DNA from: Hyphococcus sp.
GTDB lineage: Bacteria; Pseudomonadota; Alphaproteobacteria; Caulobacterales; Parvularculaceae
Direction: 5' to 3'
Length of the DNA: 39,885 bases
Assembly (NCBI GenBank): GCA_013002535.1
Contig: JABDJK010000041.1
Span: forward strand, 1 to 39,885
The notes below the pieces were generated by a model. The model saw only the letters and a program-made list of their open reading frames with translations, was not told the DNA's origin and ran no database searches. Of this stretch, positions 592-18,330 are shown in pieces (positions within the stretch are counted from its first letter, which is position 1; every line of letters begins with the position of its first letter). The position numbers and the translations under genes are program-made.

Positions 592-2553
592 GTGACGCAA
601 GAAACGCCATCGAAACTAGATGAAACTGACGGAGGCGGTCGCAGGACGACCGTGTTTTTCAGCTATGCCCACGCTAATCGCGAGCGCGCGATTGAGATCA
701 TTCAGGCGCTCGAGAAGGCCGGTTACGCAGTCTGGTGGGACGGCGTCCTCGAAGGCGGCGTTAAATATTCTGAAAATATTGAACAGGCGCTGGAAAGCGC
801 CAATGCCGTTGTCGTTTTATGGTCAGAAGATTCGATCAAATCCCATTGGGTTCGTGACGAAGCCTCGCGCGGCGTCGATCGCAACTGCCTTGTCCCCCTT
901 ACCATCGACGGCGTGAAGCCGCCGCTTGGATTTCGCCAGTTTCAGATCATTAACATGACAAACTGGCAAGGCGAGGCAGGCGCCATCGAAGCTATTCAAA
1001 TGGTGCGCGCGGTGGCTGCATTTCACGGTGATGCTCAGTCGGCGCCGGCTCTGCCAACTGGTGCGACGACGGCCATTCAATCCATCAAACGGCGTCGATT
1101 GCTCATAGGCGGCGGCGCAGCGGCGGCGGCGTTTGCAATTGGGATCGCGATGTGGCGACCCGACTTTGGCGGGAGTAAGTTGCTGGCGGAAAACGGCATC
1201 GTGGTATTGCCTTTTGACAATGTCAGCGGCGATCCGCAGCAAAACTTTATGTCGGCGGGTCTGGCGGCGGAGTTGCGCGCGGCGCTTGCCCGGAATCACG
1301 CGTTGCGAGTAATCGCTGGGTCGTCATCGGAAGCGCTGAAAAACCGAAAGCTTGATGCGGTATCAATCGCGCGTGAATTGGGCGTCGCTTATGTGCTGGA
1401 AGGTTCGATCCGCGTTGCCGGCGAGGCGATCCGCGTTTCATCGGAATTAATAGATGGCAAGTCCGGCTTCAGTCGATGGTCCGATATTTTTGAGCAGACT
1501 TTGAATGATTCTCTGAACGTTCAACAAAATATCGCCAACGCTGTCTCGTCTGCGCTTTCCGTAGAATTGCCCACAGCACAAGCAGGTGTTGCGATTGGCG
1601 CGCCGACAAATTCAGCTGCATATATAGAATACTTAAAAGGCATCGATCTTTATAAGTCCGCCGTCAGTACAGAAACCGATCTGCGATCGCTTTCACACCT
1701 TGACTCGGCTACTCAACTTGATCCGAATTTCGCCGCGGCCCACGCCGCGCGGGCGCGCACGCTAACGGTTCTCGGCAATACTAGCGATAATGTTCGGCGA
1801 GCAAAACTATATTATGCGACAGCGCTTGAGGCGGCGCAAAAAGCAGCGAGTCTTGGCCCTGAACTGGACGACGCGCATTCGACCCTCGGATTTGTCCTGT
1901 TTCAAACGCAGCTAAAAGTAAAGGAAGCGCGCGAGCCATATGAACGCTCGCGCGAGCTCGGCGAAGGCTCGGCAACAGTGCTCGCGCGTTATTCGACGTA
2001 CGCAGCGCTGACAGGACAAGACAAAGCGGCGATGGACGCCGCAACCCGCGCTGTTTCCCTCGACCCCTTAAATCCTGTCATTCATCGCGCACTCGGCCTT
2101 TCCCATTACGCAGCGGAACGCTATCGCGAAGCTATCGACGCTGTGGAAGACGCCCTGGCGCTAAACCCAAAACTTGGCGACGCCCACGCAATGATAGGCG
2201 CCGCGCTTCTCCAAATGGACAATCTGGATGACGCGATTGCCGCTTGCGAAAAAGAGACATTTCGGCTGACTCGCCACGCCTGCCTTGCTATCGCCCATTG
2301 GCAAAACGGCGATGAAGCGGCGGCAAAAACATCATTTGACGAATTAATCGATGAATATAGCGACGCTGGCCTCTATCAACAAGCGCAGGTTCTGGCCCAA
2401 TGGCAACGACCCGATGACGCCATGGCCACGCTCAATGCGGCCTTTAACGCGGGTGATTCCGGGCTCGTCTATCTAAAAACAGACCCAATGCTGACGCAAT
2501 TGCGGGAGCGCGCCGATTTTATCTCGTTGCAATCCACCCTCGGATTTGCGTAG
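592..2553 (+). CDS. TIR domain / TolB-N-like / TPR repeat membrane protein
   Basis: 653 aa with a GTG start placed by a GAGAGGGA ribosome binding site at 578-585. Residues 19-130 form a TIR_2-type domain beginning VFFSYAHANRE. It contains WVRDE at 86-90, which lines up with the WVxxE segment carrying the catalytic glutamate of NAD-cleaving TIR domains such as SARM1, so E90 is the candidate catalytic residue. A positively charged KRRR stretch and one hydrophobic segment (about 169-187) follow, consistent with a single membrane pass. Residues 200-325 resemble the TolB-N/FlgO-like region common in TPR proteins annotated as adenylate-cyclase-like (VLPFDNVSGD, then VLEGSIR). From about 345 to 640 are degenerate TPR helices (DPNFAAAHAARA, DPLNPVIHRALG). 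No cyclase domain is present. NAD hydrolysis is an inference; a scaffold or signalling role is also possible. Confidence 0.85.
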   Translation: MTQETPSKLDETDGGGRRTTVFFSYAHANRERAIEIIQALEKAGYAVWWDGVLEGGVKYSENIEQALESANAVVVLWSEDSIKSHWVRDEASRGVDRNCLVPLTIDGVKPPLGFRQFQIINMTNWQGEAGAIEAIQMVRAVAAFHGDAQSAPALPTGATTAIQSIKRRRLLIGGGAAAAAFAIGIAMWRPDFGGSKLLAENGIVVLPFDNVSGDPQQNFMSAGLAAELRAALARNHALRVIAGSSSEALKNRKLDAVSIARELGVAYVLEGSIRVAGEAIRVSSELIDGKSGFSRWSDIFEQTLNDSLNVQQNIANAVSSALSVELPTAQAGVAIGAPTNSAAYIEYLKGIDLYKSAVSTETDLRSLSHLDSATQLDPNFAAAHAARARTLTVLGNTSDNVRRAKLYYATALEAAQKAASLGPELDDAHSTLGFVLFQTQLKVKEAREPYERSRELGEGSATVLARYSTYAALTGQDKAAMDAATRAVSLDPLNPVIHRALGLSHYAAERYREAIDAVEDALALNPKLGDAHAMIGAALLQMDNLDDAIAACEKETFRLTRHACLAIAHWQNGDEAAAKTSFDELIDEYSDAGLYQQAQVLAQWQRPDDAMATLNAAFNAGDSGLVYLKTDPMLTQLRERADFISLQSTLGFA

Positions 2554-2573
2554 AGTGATTTGAAATGAAAAAC

Positions 2574-2580
2574 GGGAGGG
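2574..2580 (+). promoter_or_regulatory. Ribosome binding site deciding the start at 2586
   Basis: GGGAGGG lies 5 bases before the ATG at 2586. This favours that start over the in-frame ATG at 2565. Confidence 0.7.
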
Positions 2581-2585
2581 ACCCC

Positions 2586-2906
2586 ATGTCATTGAAAGAA
2601 ATTTTAGCTTTAACTGCTGCGTTCTCATTAACCGCGGCTTGCTCGCAAGCGCCTGAAGAAGAAGCGGCTGACGACGCCGAAGCGGCAGTCGAAGAAGTCG
2701 AAGAGGCTGCAAGCGACGCTGCCGACGCCGTTGAGGAGGCTGCGGGCGACGCCGCAGCGGCAACGGAAGAGGCTGTTGATGAAGCTGGCGAAGCTGCAGG
2801 CGACGCGGCTGAAGAAGTCGAGGACGCCATGGACGGCGACGCCGATTCGACTGCCGAAGACGAAGACGACGAGCCCCAAGGCGGCGGCCCGCGCGTCGAC
2901 GAATAA
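2586..2906 (+). CDS. Small Ala/Glu/Asp-rich candidate lipoprotein
   Basis: 106 aa from the ATG at 2586. The first 18 residues are a short hydrophobic signal followed by L-T-A-A-C with Cys19, a slightly atypical lipobox (Thr at -3). The mature part is almost entirely A, E, D and V in a recurring pattern of the type EEAxxDAA/AVEEAA, which predicts a long amphipathic or charged helix. Only two basic residues are evident (K4 and an Arg near the C-terminus). It follows the TIR-TPR gene by 32 bases on the same strand, so they may share a transcript. Its stop is 8 bases from the stop of the convergent protease gene. Similar low-complexity acidic lipoproteins occur in many proteobacteria without known function, and I do not assign one. 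Confidence 0.65.
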   Translation: MSLKEILALTAAFSLTAACSQAPEEEAADDAEAAVEEVEEAASDAADAVEEAAGDAAAATEEAVDEAGEAAGDAAEEVEDAMDGDADSTAEDEDDEPQGGGPRVDE

Positions 2907-2914
2907 TTTCCTGA

Positions 2915-5467
2915 TTACGGTGTATCGCTAACCCCTAGCGATACATCGTTTTCGCCTATTTCAGCATCTATCCAGTCAGCGTATTCGGAAACCCGGGTGT
3001 AAACGCCCGGGCGCCCGTCGCTTTCACATTGTTTTTTGCCCCAGCTGACAATGCCGACCAGCGTGTTATTGTGCACGACCGGTCCGCCGCTATCGCCCTT
3101 ACAAGTTTTCTGAACCGGATCGCTGGCGCAAAAAACGCCGTCATGCACTTTTTCCGGTCCAAAGCCCGGCAAGCCCATGCATTCTTCCTGACTGAGAACG
3201 GTGAGATCGACCGTGAGCAACGATCCGAAAGGTTCATAGCCTTCGACGTTGCGTGTTTTGCCCCAGCCAAAAATATCGACCGTTGCGCCGGCGGACAGAA
3301 CATAATCCGTAGGCGCATAATCGATATAAGCGACAAGCACTGGCTCGGTTTGATCAATATTTTTCGGATCAAACAGCGGCGCATCCGGCGGCGTGCGTTT
3401 GTGATCGAACAGCATCAATTGCTCAGCAGTCTTCGCGTCCCAAAGCCGCGCCGCGCCATCAACGCTCCAGGTCAGGAGTTGCTTTCCCCCTTTTACAAAC
3501 GATGCGCCTTTGACAGCGCCGCTGTGATAAAACCGCTCTCGCTCAATGCCCGTATCGGTGTCCCAAAACCGTGCGGAACCGTCCTGACTCCAGGTCACCA
3601 GAATTTTTTCATCCGGCGAAAGTTCAGCGCCATTCGCCGCCAAATTATGATCGAACCGCGCTATCTCACGGCTTTCCGTCATATCCCAAAGAACGCCGCC
3701 AGCCCCGTCCGTACCCAGCACGCGAGCGCCGTTATCAAAGCTATAGACTTCGCCCATCAAGACTTTCTGATTGACCGACGCAAGTCGCTCGCCTGTCTGC
3801 AGATCCCAGATTTTCAAAATGCCGTAGCGCGAACGGGTCAAAAGGCGCGCATCATTGGCGATAAGCTTCGCCCACTCGACACGATCGCCGAGATGATCGT
3901 CGGAATGATCGATTTGCCGCAGGCGTTCGCCGTTTTGCGTATCAAAGACAAAAATCTCACCGCCGCCATATGCGTCCGTCCATCCAACTACGCGGCTATC
4001 ATCGCTATTGAAGATTGCGCCTGTAAAGCGTCCGCCGCCGAGCACCTCTTCCTTTTCCATAAGCGCGCCAGGCATTCCTGTTTCGATATCCCATAGTTGC
4101 AGGATGTTCTCGCCGAGGCTTATGACGCTATTCCCGCGCGTTGAAAGCGATGCGCCGAAACTCATCGCTTTCGCATCAATGCGCACCAATTCTTCAAAAT
4201 TTTCGCCGTCCCAGACCTGGATTAACCCGTGTCGGTCCTCGTCGCGCATGTCTCCGCTGACCGTCAAGATTTTCCTGTCGCCAGAAAAAACCGAACCACC
4301 ACGTACGTATCCTTCAACGGACAGATTTGCGAGCACTTGGTTCGTTTCCATATCGGCGATGATTGCTTTGCTTTGATCCCAGAACAAGGCGTGTCTTTTT
4401 TCTTTGTACGGACTGAATCCAGCATAGTGGCGATTGAAATAAAGGTCGTCCTGACCGTCAGACAGAATGACATAGGGGTCATGTTCATCAGGCTCGCCGG
4501 CATCGCCCCCGAATACGATCTTCAGGACGTCTCCGCGCCATACATATCTGAGCCACTCGGTAAATGCCGGCGCGCCGTCGCCGAAAATCGACGCCCCGTC
4601 GGCAAATCGGGTCAGATATTCAAAGCCCCGGTATAGCTCGCGGCCGGTTGCAATTTCCCAAACGCGCTGCGTGCCGTCCCCGCTCCAGGTCATGATCCGA
4701 TCGCCGCCGGCAATGGTTCTTGCGTCGAGGATCGGCGCGCCGGTGCCGGATTCCAGTTTGTTCCGATATTCGTTGAGCGCAGTTTCAGTAACCGCGTTCC
4801 CTTTGATCGCGTATCGAACGAGGGCGATATCGTCCTTGTATCCCGGCTTGCCAGGCGCCGGGTCGTATCCGGGGTGGACGACAACTTTTTCAATTTTGAA
4901 TAACGGCGCTGAGTCTTGTGAAAGCTCGGCAACCCCTAGCCGAACGCCGAAACCCTCTTCGACCATTTTTTCATCAACGCAATGGGCGGCAGTTACGACC
5001 CAGCCAGGAGCGATAAGCGCGCCGCCGCAATAATGGCGCAATTCCCAGAGTGCTTTGCCCTTCCGAAAATCATCAGGCCAGGGATAATCGGCCGGGGCGG
5101 CAATTTGCGCTTGAAAAGGCGCCGCTTCAAAACTAATAGGCACGGCCGCGGTCGGTCGAATATTACATCTGCGTTTTAGAAACTCCTCCATCGCCAACCC
5201 GGGCGGGCACTTTGTCAGATAACTTTCCTCGTCAGCGATATAATATGCAAAATTTTGTTCTTCACTATACCGATAATTCAATGTTTCCGGCGCAGTATCC
5301 TCAACGCCAGCCAGCGCAATCGGCGCATCTTGCGCTGCTGGAACGCGCGCGCCTTGCGCGATGTCGTCGTGCGCCGGCGGCGCAAACCCTATATATTTGT
5401 TAAGGGTATAATACCCCGCGGCGGCCGTCGCTGTAACGGCCAATAATACCACAAGAACCCTGCCCAT
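2915..5467 (-). CDS. Membrane-anchored trypsin-like serine protease with a WD40-like propeller inserted between its two half-barrels
   Basis: 850 aa from ATG 5467, preceded by GAGGG at 5 bases; a GTG at 5479 would add 4 residues. Numbering below is from the GTG. Residues 7-27 are a hydrophobic signal or anchor. The first half of an S1 protease fold spans about 115-250: CGGALI (151-156), TAAHC with catalytic H166, and DDIAL with catalytic D217. Residues about 250-695 are not protease but repeated WD40-like blades, with motifs such as TWSGDGTQRVWE, ILQLWDIETG, ILKIWDLQTGE, SQDGSARFWD and SVDGAARLWD. The second half-barrel follows at about 710-840, with FGWGKT, GDSGGP (catalytic S797), IVSWG and PGVYTRVSEY. 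Cysteines 151/167, 767/784 and 793/818 match the standard S1 disulfides, which supports export. The residue six before S797, equivalent to trypsin Asp189, is Lys, so Arg/Lys specificity is not expected. Substrate unknown. Confidence 0.85.
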   Translation of the reverse strand: MGRVLVVLLAVTATAAAGYYTLNKYIGFAPPAHDDIAQGARVPAAQDAPIALAGVEDTAPETLNYRYSEEQNFAYYIADEESYLTKCPPGLAMEEFLKRRCNIRPTAAVPISFEAAPFQAQIAAPADYPWPDDFRKGKALWELRHYCGGALIAPGWVVTAAHCVDEKMVEEGFGVRLGVAELSQDSAPLFKIEKVVVHPGYDPAPGKPGYKDDIALVRYAIKGNAVTETALNEYRNKLESGTGAPILDARTIAGGDRIMTWSGDGTQRVWEIATGRELYRGFEYLTRFADGASIFGDGAPAFTEWLRYVWRGDVLKIVFGGDAGEPDEHDPYVILSDGQDDLYFNRHYAGFSPYKEKRHALFWDQSKAIIADMETNQVLANLSVEGYVRGGSVFSGDRKILTVSGDMRDEDRHGLIQVWDGENFEELVRIDAKAMSFGASLSTRGNSVISLGENILQLWDIETGMPGALMEKEEVLGGGRFTGAIFNSDDSRVVGWTDAYGGGEIFVFDTQNGERLRQIDHSDDHLGDRVEWAKLIANDARLLTRSRYGILKIWDLQTGERLASVNQKVLMGEVYSFDNGARVLGTDGAGGVLWDMTESREIARFDHNLAANGAELSPDEKILVTWSQDGSARFWDTDTGIERERFYHSGAVKGASFVKGGKQLLTWSVDGAARLWDAKTAEQLMLFDHKRTPPDAPLFDPKNIDQTEPVLVAYIDYAPTDYVLSAGATVDIFGWGKTRNVEGYEPFGSLLTVDLTVLSQEECMGLPGFGPEKVHDGVFCASDPVQKTCKGDSGGPVVHNNTLVGIVSWGKKQCESDGRPGVYTRVSEYADWIDAEIGENDVSLGVSDTP
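2921..2952 (+). terminator. Rho-independent terminator for the acidic lipoprotein gene
   Basis: Perfect 10-bp inverted repeat TGTATCGCTA / TAGCGATACA around a 5-base ACCCC loop (2921-2945), followed on the plus strand by TCGTTTTCG. It starts 14 bases after the stop of the lipoprotein gene and lies inside the last codons of the convergent protease gene. There is no T-run on the minus side. Confidence 0.6.
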
Positions 5468-5472
5468 ATGCG

Positions 5473-5477
5473 CCCTC
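5473..5477 (-). promoter_or_regulatory. Ribosome binding site deciding the protease start
   Basis: GAGGG on the minus strand, 5 bases before ATG 5467. It supports this codon over the GTG at 5479, which has no comparable site. Confidence 0.6.
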
Positions 5478-5486
5478 ACCCGATTA

Positions 5487-11834: not shown

Positions 11835-15483
<3,649 letters not shown>

Positions 15484-15546
15484 CAGTTTAAGACCTTTTC
15501 ATCAAGTCCAGCTTCATCAAACTCAGTTTCATCGGGCCGAGAATTG

Positions 15547-16665
15547 TCAAACCCTGAGCGGCATCAACACGTAAAGCGCGCGCGTGTCTTCGTCATCGAC
15601 AATTACCGTCGGTGATGACGGGTCGGCGAGATGAAACGTCGCCGTATCGCCGTCGACCTGTTGCGCGACGTCAAGAAGGTAACGCGCGTTGAAACCGATC
15701 TCGATTGGATCGCCGCCATAATCGACGCTTAGCTCTTCAAGCGCGGAACCGGCTTCCGGATTGTTCACCGCAAGGCGCAAATTATCGGATTCCAGCGCCA
15801 GCTTGACTGAGCGCGTACGATCAGCGGAAACCGTAGAAACGCGATCAACCGCTTGCGCGAATTCTTTTGTCTCGACGCGCAAAGTGTTTTTATTACCCTT
15901 CGGGATCACCCGTTCATAATCGGGGAAAGTCCCATCTATCAGTTTTGATGTCAGACGCCCTGGCCCAAACCCGAACCGGATCTTTGACGTCGACACGCCA
16001 ATTTCAACATTGTCTTCTGCGTCCTCCAGAAGGCGTGACAGCTCGGCGATGGCTTTGCGCGGCACGATAACGCCCGGCATATTTCCGGCGCCGTCAGGCA
16101 GCGGCGCATCAAGACGCGCTAGCCGGTGCCCGTCGGTCGCTGCAGCGCGCAGGAGGGGCGTGTCTTCTTCGGGGCAGGCGTGAAAATATACGCCGTTCAG
16201 ATAATAACGCGTCTCTTCCTGCGACATGGCGAAACGCGTCTTTTGTAGCAGCCGGCGAAGGTCCGATGTCGCCATCGTAAACTTGGTGTCGAGGTCGTCG
16301 TGAGACAGGCTCGGGAAATCATCATCCGGCAACACCGCTAACGAGAACTCCGACCGGCCCGCGGAAACTTGAAGCCGCCCCTCTTCGCGCGACAAATCGA
16401 GACGAACCTGCGCGCCGTCCGGCAGGCGCTTCACGATTTCAAAGAGCGTCAGCGCCGAGACTGTCGTCGCGCCATCCTGCGCAACATCAGCAGGCGCCTC
16501 TTCCGAGATTTCAATATCGAGGTCTGTCGCTGTTAAAACCAGCGAGTGCTTTTGCGCCTGAATCAAAACATTCGACAATATCGGAATTGTATTGCGGCGT
16601 TCGACAACACTTTGGACGTGCCCCAGCGCTTTTGACAGGGCTGAACGTTCGATCGTGACCTTCAT
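15547..16665 (-). CDS. dnaN: DNA polymerase III subunit beta (sliding clamp)
   Basis: 372 aa from ATG 16665, matching the family start MKVTIERSAL. An upstream in-frame extension to 16713 is not supported. It contains the recognisable clamp segments VVERRNTIPILSNVLI, GTFPDYERVIP and the C-terminal hydrophobic end ALYVLMPLRV, and has the normal length for the three-domain clamp. The protein forms a ring around DNA and tethers polymerase III. It is separated from dnaA by 243 bases containing a strong hairpin, and is followed by recF. Confidence 0.97.
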   Translation of the reverse strand: MKVTIERSALSKALGHVQSVVERRNTIPILSNVLIQAQKHSLVLTATDLDIEISEEAPADVAQDGATTVSALTLFEIVKRLPDGAQVRLDLSREEGRLQVSAGRSEFSLAVLPDDDFPSLSHDDLDTKFTMATSDLRRLLQKTRFAMSQEETRYYLNGVYFHACPEEDTPLLRAAATDGHRLARLDAPLPDGAGNMPGVIVPRKAIAELSRLLEDAEDNVEIGVSTSKIRFGFGPGRLTSKLIDGTFPDYERVIPKGNKNTLRVETKEFAQAVDRVSTVSADRTRSVKLALESDNLRLAVNNPEAGSALEELSVDYGGDPIEIGFNARYLLDVAQQVDGDTATFHLADPSSPTVIVDDEDTRALYVLMPLRV

Positions 16666-16820
16666 TTTTGTCTTGCTCTCTCGGAAAATTAAGACTGCGG
16701 AATTGCGGCGCACCCCTAAAAATCAAGCCGCTGGCGCCCTCAAAATGACACCGCCAGCGGCGGAGAATCGCCTGGCTGAAATTAGGTGTTTATTATAGCC
16801 GAAAAGCGCCCCGAAAAGCT

Positions 16821-16852
16821 AGCGCCGCAGCCCGTTTTCAGGGTGCGGCGCT
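16821..16852 (-). terminator. Strong hairpin between dnaA and dnaN
   Basis: Arms AGCGCCGCA(G)CCC and GGGTGCGGCGCT pair over 12 bp with one bulged base and a 7-base loop. Read on the minus strand it follows dnaA by about 55 bases and is trailed by AGCTTTTCGGGG, a short T-run. It could end most dnaA transcripts or act as a partial attenuator before dnaN. Confidence 0.5.
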
Positions 16853-16908
16853 GACCTTTAATCGGCTGTTTTCAAGCGTCTTTTTGAGGGCTTTTTCAGG
16901 CCGGAAAA

Positions 16909-18330
16909 TTAATCCTCAAGGGCTTCGCGAATTCGCGCGACAGCGGCTTGAAAGACCTTGTCGCGCTCAAGCAATGCCTGCGCCCGGCGATAGCTGGACA
17001 TGACCGTTGTATGGTCGCGTTTCAGCGCCTTACCGATGCGCGGAAAGGATTCTTTCAGGACCTCTCTTGCGCAGAATACAACGGCATGGCGCGCCCTCGC
17101 GATGCGCTGAGGCTGGGCCCGGCCGGTAATGTCGGCAAGCGTCAGGCCAAAGGCCTCAGCGCCAGCGGCAATCGCGTCGTCAATCGTGACGATCTTTTTG
17201 CGATCTTCCATGCGAGACTTCAGGATCGCTTTGGCTTCATCCAGCGTTACCGTCTTCTCCTCACCGCCATACATCAAGAAGAGCTGGTTAAGGGCGCCAA
17301 TGGTTTCACGGGTGCTTTGGGTGAAAGTCCGAGCAATAAACTCAAGAACGTCATCTTCGATGAGGCAATGGGCGGCGCTGCGTCGAACGCGCTTTTTCAG
17401 AATCTCCAGACGAAGCGTTTCATCAGCTTCGTGGATCGGCACGCAAAGACCGCCAGCAAGCCGATCGGTCAGGCGTTTTTTAATGCCAGCTTCAGCGAGT
17501 TTTGCGGGCGGCAAATCGCCGGCGATGACAACTTGCTTTCCCCGATCAAGCGCTGCGTCAATGACCACGAGCAATTCCTCCTGTGTTCGTTCCTTGCCTT
17601 CCAAAAAATGAATATCATCCAAGATGATGAGATCGTAACCGAGAAGCATTTCATGAAAGCGCTGTGTGTCCCCCGATAAGACGGCGTTGACACAGGCGTT
17701 GATGAGATTTCGGTAAGTGATGTAAGCGACGTCGCTGTTTTCAAATTTAGCGCGCCATTCGTGCCCAACAGCTTGACCAAGGTGCGTCTTGCCCGATCCT
17801 GAAGGCCCGTAAAAATAGACAATATCGCGCGGTTTTTCAGCATCTAGCGCCTGGCGCGCGGCCGCCCAGGCAATCTGATTGGAGTGTCCGACGGCATATG
17901 TGTCAAACGTCCGGCGCGGATCGAGCGGCGCTGAAATTTCCGTTATCGACGCTGTGCGGAACGGGTTTTTTGCTGCGCCTGTTTCAATGGCGCCAACCTT
18001 CGCCGACGATTTCAGAAGGTTCTTGCGCACGGTAAGCCGGACTTTATCAACCGGCGCGACGGCATTGCTCCAGACTGCCGTTAATACTGGAAGATAACGA
18101 TTATCAAGCATATCGCATTTCGCCTGCGAACCTGTTGAAAATGTCACAGAGCGATCACCACGCTCTGCAAGCCCCAGATCAAGAAACCACGATTTGTATT
18201 TCGCCTCGCCAACCTTTGATCGCAACGCGCTTTGGAAGCGCGCAAACGCCGCAGCGTTGTCCTTGTTTTGATCTCCCCCCTTGCCCGAAAATTCAGCTTC
18301 GCCGTCTTTGGCAAATAGTTTGTTTTGCAT
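16909..18330 (-). CDS. dnaA: Chromosomal replication initiator protein DnaA
   Basis: 473 aa with ATG start. It has domain I near 25-100, a linker, then the AAA+ domain with GHSNQIAWAAA (148-158), Walker A GPSGSGKT (175-182) and Walker B LIILDDIHFL. The C-terminal DNA-binding domain carries the DnaA signature FPRIGKALKRDHTTV with the recognition helix. Length is within the family range. It binds DnaA boxes and melts the origin. It is first of the dnaA-dnaN-recF-gyrB series and lies 606 bases downstream of rpsT. No consensus DnaA box was seen next to it, so this does not mark the origin by itself. Confidence 0.96.
   Translation of the reverse strand: MQNKLFAKDGEAEFSGKGGDQNKDNAAAFARFQSALRSKVGEAKYKSWFLDLGLAERGDRSVTFSTGSQAKCDMLDNRYLPVLTAVWSNAVAPVDKVRLTVRKNLLKSSAKVGAIETGAAKNPFRTASITEISAPLDPRRTFDTYAVGHSNQIAWAAARQALDAEKPRDIVYFYGPSGSGKTHLGQAVGHEWRAKFENSDVAYITYRNLINACVNAVLSGDTQRFHEMLLGYDLIILDDIHFLEGKERTQEELLVVIDAALDRGKQVVIAGDLPPAKLAEAGIKKRLTDRLAGGLCVPIHEADETLRLEILKKRVRRSAAHCLIEDDVLEFIARTFTQSTRETIGALNQLFLMYGGEEKTVTLDEAKAILKSRMEDRKKIVTIDDAIAAGAEAFGLTLADITGRAQPQRIARARHAVVFCAREVLKESFPRIGKALKRDHTTVMSSYRRAQALLERDKVFQAAVARIREALED

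Follow-up and report, generated by a model that had tools for sequence, protein, structure and literature searches.

Three adjoining genes lie in the window, by which we mean the whole stretch of 39,885 nucleotides that was analysed, and whose genome is designated G000. The receptor gene (592..2553, +) encodes a protein of 653 residues in which Pfam and hydrophobicity delineate a TIR domain, a transmembrane-like (TM) segment at residues 170-188 and a C-terminal TPR region. On the same strand, between it and the protease gene, is a gene for a small, acidic lipoprotein (2565..2906, +; likely Met at 2586), whose product has a lipobox-like site, a linker rich in Ala, Glu and Asp, and the tail EDDEPQGGGPRVDE. 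Convergent with the receptor gene is the gene for a trypsin-type (S1) protease interrupted by a propeller (2915..5479, -), an uninterrupted open reading frame of 854 codons with a GTG start; the in-frame ATG at 5467, where the initial annotation had placed the end of the gene, is codon 5. Further along the window, at 11835-18330 on the reverse strand, are gyrB, a recF-like SMC_N gene, dnaN and dnaA, and the gene set may therefore lie close to a replication origin.

The protease is probably exported, judging from a hydrophobic segment at residues 5-29 (5393..5467, -) that is a putative export signal or anchor, with a Kyte-Doolittle peak of 1.89 close to the N-terminus and a helix at residues 2-29 in the AlphaFold model. 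By eye, a Cys follows the hydrophobic stretch in the homologous proteases of loci L072, L073, L162, L163 and L164, making these possible lipoproteins. The Trypsin model PF00089 matches the window protease in two stretches (whole-protein E 1.2e-44; 153.2 bits against a cut-off of 20.6) that are separated by an insert, which means that the S1 catalytic domain is not contiguous. The N-terminal half-barrel, residues 111-227 (4799..5149, -), is delimited by the split PF00089 match, an alignment with S1 structures in the PDB and pLDDT, and it carries His166 (codon 4982-4984, -) and Asp217 (4829-4831, -). The C-terminal half-barrel, residues 712-844 (2948..3346, -), is delimited by pLDDT and by positions 104-220 of the PF00089 profile, to which residues 716-837 give the best match, and it carries Lys791 (3107-3109, -) and Ser797 (3089-3091, -). 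Both parts align in order to one S1 chain in three PDB alignments, that of kallikrein-5 first. His166, Asp217 and Ser797 are the equivalents of His57, Asp102 and Ser195, with the GDSGGP motif present, and the triad is kept in all five homologues described below; the residue assignments and the Asp-Ser distance of 580 given in the initial annotation are thus borne out. Its claim that disulfide cysteines are retained on both sides also stands, C151, C167, C767, C784, C793 and C818 being invariant in a six-row alignment. So does its placing of a Lys in the S1 pocket: counted back from Ser797, residue 189 in chymotrypsin numbering is Lys791. Lys189 is common to the six interrupted proteases and their insert-free homologue, and its conservation in the six means that it is no oddity of the window gene. 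Inspection of the six-row alignment by eye gave no activation site of the Ile16-Val-Gly-Gly type before the conserved FQAQI segment. Taken on its residues, the window protein would be an active protease.

The insert follows the strand bearing the Asp102 equivalent and spans residues 233 to 710 approximately. Within it, profiles, AlphaFold and Foldseek place a WD40-type beta-propeller at residues ~253-695 (3395..4723, -), of which 261-410 are weakly modelled. The initial annotation had put about 450 residues of WD40-like blades between the S1 halves; the nested position holds, but the length is nearer 480 residues. Matches to WD40 and beta-propeller profiles fall at ~418-707, between the two Trypsin stretches, and in the window protease they stay under their curated cut-offs, PF00400 at 21.0 versus 27 bits and the other propeller models listed likewise. 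The AlphaFold2 model of the window protease, built from 42 rows, has a mean pLDDT of 73.5 and a pTM of only 0.59. Block means of pLDDT are 82-97 (residues 111-220) and 77-96 (721-840) in the S1 parts, 76-95 (421-690) and 26-76 (261-410) in the propeller, which is bordered by low-confidence linkers at 228-258 and 696-712. The model of a Hyphomonas homologue of 701 residues, built from 34 rows, has a mean pLDDT of 73.3 and a pTM of 0.67, and here too the S1 parts are modelled with confidence. Among the 50 Foldseek matches listed for each, the window model gave WD40 propellers at a target TM of at most 0.65, and the Hyphomonas homologue gave a top target TM of 0.75 to 6g6o_A, the designed protein Ika8, an eight-bladed propeller, with seven-bladed designs at 0.66-0.70. 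Counted by eye, there are eight repeats in the Hyphomonas homologue and eight or nine in the window protein. The listed matches were propellers only for both models, and the pairing of the S1 halves lies outside what they show; the strand order in the window model fits, in our reading, two half-barrels plus a C-terminal helix around the propeller, and from model confidence and homology the half-barrels would pack as one protease. We also considered, and rejected, an origin of the propeller from a TIR-TM-WD40 protein of the same genome, as the two share only 27% identity over 234 residues.

The same S1-WD40-S1 order, sought in other genomes, was found in five further proteins, at loci L072 (from a metagenome-assembled genome, MAG, of Hyphomonas sp. 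BRH_c22), L073 (from an alphaproteobacterial MAG), L162, L163 and L164. The first two came from a profile scan of contigs, in which the window protein alone found no relative and a two-row alignment found 476, the best 80 of which were kept. When 105 genomes from the Hyphomonas sp. BRH_c22 family were searched, five proved to encode the architecture, with three further genes in G466, G470 and G471. L072 and L073 are 94.5% identical and L162 and L163 81.7% identical, so the five homologues amount to three lineages; they are 32-34% identical to the window protein. A relative of particular value is an insert-free S1 protease of 371 residues (L015:6406-7521) in a genome of the same genus, G027; BLASTP gives 40% and 46% identity between it and the respective S1 parts of the window protein. 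In a FastTree phylogeny of 211 S1 columns, midpoint-rooted and of modest support, the six interrupted proteins form one clade (0.856), the G027 protein is its sister (0.769), and all seven belong to a larger group of 13 S1 proteases (0.901) that are encoded next to TIR-TPR genes. The propeller was thus probably inserted once. This homologue, the six-member clade and the AlphaFold models together sustain the view of the initial annotation that a WD40-type propeller sits inside a single S1 domain with both parts intact. GC content is similar along the protease gene (0.53-0.56), with third-position GC of 0.605 in the propeller part versus 0.53-0.56 in the rest, and this similarity, the insert-free homologue and the five loci of the same order argue against chance or chimerism. 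An assembly chimera or a fusion of neighbouring genes is very unlikely, since the insert-free homologue aligns to both parts and five loci share the order. With some 480 residues between its catalytic Asp and Ser, and a sister protein of the same genus that lacks them, the protease offers a natural case for studying the effects of a large insertion.

How widespread is this architecture? Within the window's own family it occurs in at least one of 62 genomes among the matches listed. In the wider samples the thresholds were strict and few candidates were scored per genome (two for the S1-propeller-S1 protein and the six-row profile), making the following counts lower bounds: the S1-propeller-S1 protein at E<=1e-25 in one of 385 genomes of the class, the window's own; the insert-free S1 at E 1e-12 in three of the 385 (the window's own, G206 and G427); and a six-row profile at E 1e-30 in two of 398 genomes of the phylum, the window's own and G574, the latter with an S1 that lacks the insert. 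The window DNA had no match in a plasmid collection.

The receptor gene is the constant companion of the interrupted proteases. Its TIR domain is matched by PF13676 (E 3e-21), TPR models are matched as well, and the hydrophobic peak at residue 170 points to a membrane topology with TIR and TPR parts on opposite sides of the TM-like segment. Glu90 of the TIR domain, which we take to be the catalytic position, is invariant in receptor alignment A7 (19 rows, one without a TIR), and the output could be an NADase activity or a signal. A TIR-TM-TPR gene adjoins all six S1-propeller-S1 genes (window, L072, L073, L162-L164) and the insert-free L015 gene; where compared, these receptor orthologues are 48-55% identical. 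Neither this linkage nor the lipoprotein gene figured in the initial annotation. At E<=1e-90 a TIR-TPR orthologue is present in the same five of the 105 Hyphomonas-family genomes as the protease (Fisher p 1e-8; 6e-6 with the five collapsed to three lineages). In the window's own family it occurs in three of 62 genomes (G000, G027 and G002), two of them with an adjoining S1 gene; G002 has none within ~8 kb, and there the TIR part differs and a run of N lies inside the gene. At 1e-50, with at most three candidates scored per genome, the class sample gave TIR-TPR genes in the window's own genome and G206 only, of 385, and that of G206 adjoins an S1 gene without a propeller. In a Novosphingobium record, which only the receptor brought up, no S1 lies less than 5 kb from the TIR-TPR gene. 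It follows from G002 and Novosphingobium that the protease is not obligatory. Overall, an S1 gene lies beside 8 of 10 TIR-TPR orthologues versus none of 15 paralogues (p 4e-5; 6 of 8 and p 3e-4 with near pairs collapsed), a comparison in which the two sides were scanned unequally: the paralogues were searched for an S1 motif within flanks of at most 1.5 kb, some loci being truncated by the end of the contig (L064 is 3167 bases long), and the L072 protease, 1.37 kb from its receptor gene, came from a longer stretch.

The pairing, mostly convergent, extends to more remote S1 relatives from Alpha- and Gammaproteobacteria. Among the best 80 of the 476 relatives, a receptor-like TPR gene adjoins the S1 gene at 12 of the 12 first-listed loci and at 3 of the 68 others; the phylum sample added G574, where a receptor-like TPR gene likewise adjoins. 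At L082 a nucleotidyl cyclase (PF00211) takes the place of the TIR domain, which suggests that the TPR part is the partner of the protease. At L097 the TPR gene has no recognised N-terminal domain, and the L097 protease lies outside the TIR-linked group in the S1 tree. S1 genes outside that group in G427, G013 and G038 had no receptor-like TPR gene in stretches of 7.9-12 kb. Protease and receptor genes are convergent in 20 of the 22 pairs counted, those of L164 and L015 being co-directional; this arrangement is unusual for an operon and counts against reading the genes as one set.

For the lipoprotein gene, a home-made lipobox pattern was found downstream of 17 of 21 receptor genes of such sets (19 of 23 with L178 and L179 included) versus none of 15 paralogues (p 7e-7; 2e-6 with near pairs collapsed), a control from which L016, a repeat of L069, and L056, the G002 orthologue, were left out; downstream of that G002 orthologue the pattern was not found either. 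The pattern fails in L080, L081, L082 and L112. By eye there is a candidate lipoprotein in L082, in L112 and, flanked by the two S1 genes of that locus, in L081; in L080 no signal peptide is visible either. In L164 the receptor gene separates the lipoprotein gene from the protease gene. None of eight lipoproteins scanned scored above Pfam or NCBIfam cut-offs. The tails across the sets are of several types: QGGG(E/P), QGK(S/G)R, SGGDKV, Arg-containing D/N-rich repeats and others (L083, L097, L143). Where the S1 has Lys189 the tail is of the GGG or QGK type at 10 of 11 loci (L083 differs), and where it has Asp189 the tail is an Arg-containing D/N-rich one at 5 of 5 (L079, L080, L081, L082, L172; the L080 and L082 reading frames were chosen by eye). 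This may be a hint of a relation between protease and tail, but shared ancestry would explain it equally well.

Several loci show further features. In L072, transposase-like ORFs identified by eye (L072:6145-7132) separate the S1-propeller-S1 gene from the lipoprotein and TIR-TPR genes, whereas in the near-identical L073 the interval is no more than 318 bases; a caspase-like protein (PF00656, signal-like N-terminus) and a second, insert-free S1 adjoin the L072 set (L072:21-2132 and 2197-3753). A second S1 gene is also present at L015:7518-8630, L079:4784-5737 and L081:5415-6497. Upstream of the TIR-TPR gene of Novosphingobium sp. RL4 are genes for a CHAT-protease-like lipoprotein and a 662-residue protein (L178:1332-2855 and 2852-4840, both -), the latter resembling, by eye, the G206 neighbour L172:2534-4498. 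Elsewhere in the window's own genome a TIR-TPR paralogue (L016:340-2328, +) is convergent with a TIR-TM-WD40 gene (L016:2331-4547, -), and in G034:C44 TIR-TPR and WD40 matches lie ~1.1 kb apart on opposite strands; possibly this is another receptor pair.

What, then, might the gene set do? The sequence architecture, the conserved catalytic residues, the single clade and the gene linkage are observed; export and topology (from hydrophobicity), proteolytic activity, the substrate, the direction of regulation, the TIR output and the biological role are our inferences. From set to set the receptor TPR part and the lipoprotein are found again, in most cases beside an exported S1 protease, and the output domain can vary (L082); this speaks for an action of the protease outside the cytoplasm, on either the receptor or the lipoprotein. 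On this view the propeller, acquired once, would serve recognition or gating. The initial annotation had proposed that it could be a sensor that draws the two half-barrels together. We tentatively favour, with somewhat less than even confidence, a module for surveillance of the envelope: an exported protease, with its propeller as gate or scaffold, would act on the outer part of the receptor or on the lipoprotein and so control a TIR output. In such a module the propeller would bind a partner (the lipoprotein tail, the receptor TPRs, or a ligand from the envelope or an invader) and would position or gate the protease. Cleavage of the lipoprotein tail, or of the outer part of the receptor, would switch the TIR domain, which would then consume NAD+ or make a signal. 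Against this reading are the two of ten receptor orthologues without an S1 (G002 and Novosphingobium), the mostly convergent gene order, the low pTM of both models, the missing Ile16-Val-Gly-Gly-type start, the four loci at which the lipobox pattern fails, and the chance that the linkage reflects co-transfer.

Might the same parts serve envelope stress or quality control, and not defence? The protease and lipoprotein would then report envelope damage to the receptor, whose TIR or cyclase would make a second messenger, in a circuit of the DegS/RseA or RcsF/IgaA kind. We regard this as rather unlikely, although it would accommodate the exchange of TIR for cyclase in L082, the lack of any PADLOC model matching the window protease (the receptor is matched in its TIR part only), and the absence of the window protease from the plasmid collection (E 1e-20) and of the insert-free S1 from a phage collection (E 1e-15). 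However, the patchy occurrence (5 of 105 genomes; at least 1 of 62 among the matches listed) and the flanking genes, which differ at most loci (those of L162 and L163 are alike), are more in keeping with an accessory system, and PADLOC models for LmuA (4.3e-6) and RT-Protease_XI match the insert-free S1 weakly and in part, perhaps through nothing more than the common trypsin fold.

Still less probable, in our estimation, is a secreted protease that works on its own and is linked to the other genes through co-transfer only. The receptors of G002 and Novosphingobium that lack an S1, and the convergent gene order, are what would be expected of such an enzyme, but the linkage persists in Alpha- and Gammaproteobacteria amid different surroundings, and protease and receptor occur in the same 5 of 105 genomes. 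As to the propeller itself, could it be a folding or tethering insert with no regulatory role, the protease working like its insert-free homologue? That this homologue belongs to the same gene set, and that low-confidence linkers (228-258, 696-712) flank the propeller in the model, would suit a passive insert, but the propeller has been retained in all six proteins despite identities of only 32-34% to the window protein, and we think such passivity improbable.

Against known systems, PADLOC gave no system-protein match over most of the length of the window protease or receptor, and weak partial matches to LmuA for the L072 S1 (0.0039) and the L015 S1 (4.3e-6). In immune-type systems trypsin-like proteases serve as effectors or partners, both in the trypsin-linked conflict systems of bacteria (PMC7159879, PMC8195603) and where a nuclease is paired with a protease (PMC12799240). 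In the accessible parts of these three papers, the partners are mainly of NTPase, EAD, death-like or nuclease type, and neither a propeller nested in an S1 domain nor a TIR-TM-TPR and lipoprotein partnership appears. Nor was the gene set found described in the open-access literature searched, including the accessible part of PMC8567305, and it may still be published. With ordinary S1 proteases (PF00089; the solved structures at the head of the list are kallikrein-5, uPA and factor D) the window protease has in common the triad, GDSGGP, six half-barrel cysteines and both half-barrels; unlike them it has an interruption of ~480 residues, Lys at 189, no visible start of the Ile16-Val-Gly-Gly type and a gene linked to TIR-TM-TPR.

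Signalling pathways offer further parallels. DegS/RseA has a gated periplasmic trypsin-fold protease, and in RcsF/IgaA a lipoprotein with a flexible linker signals to an inner-membrane protein. The gene set shares with them a trypsin-fold protease with an extra domain and a lipoprotein with a linker, but no PDZ is among the 25 Pfam matches listed for the window protease and the output is a TIR or a cyclase. In the Toll pathway of insects, an extracellular S1 protease, a small extracellular protein and a transmembrane receptor with a TIR domain act together, and these are the same three kinds of parts; we claim homology for the TIR and S1 domains only, and the ligand activation of Toll has no evident counterpart in the window set. 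In a bacterial analogue of Toll, an exported trypsin-type protease, in one lineage with a nested propeller for recognition or gating, would cleave a small lipid-anchored protein whose tail switches a membrane receptor with a cytoplasmic TIR or cyclase domain, converting attack on or damage to the envelope into a cell-death or signalling output. We consider so full a correspondence unlikely. The TIR receptor and the lipoprotein, linked as they are to the protease, offer a testable route by which bacteria could convey proteolysis outside the cytoplasm to a TIR output.
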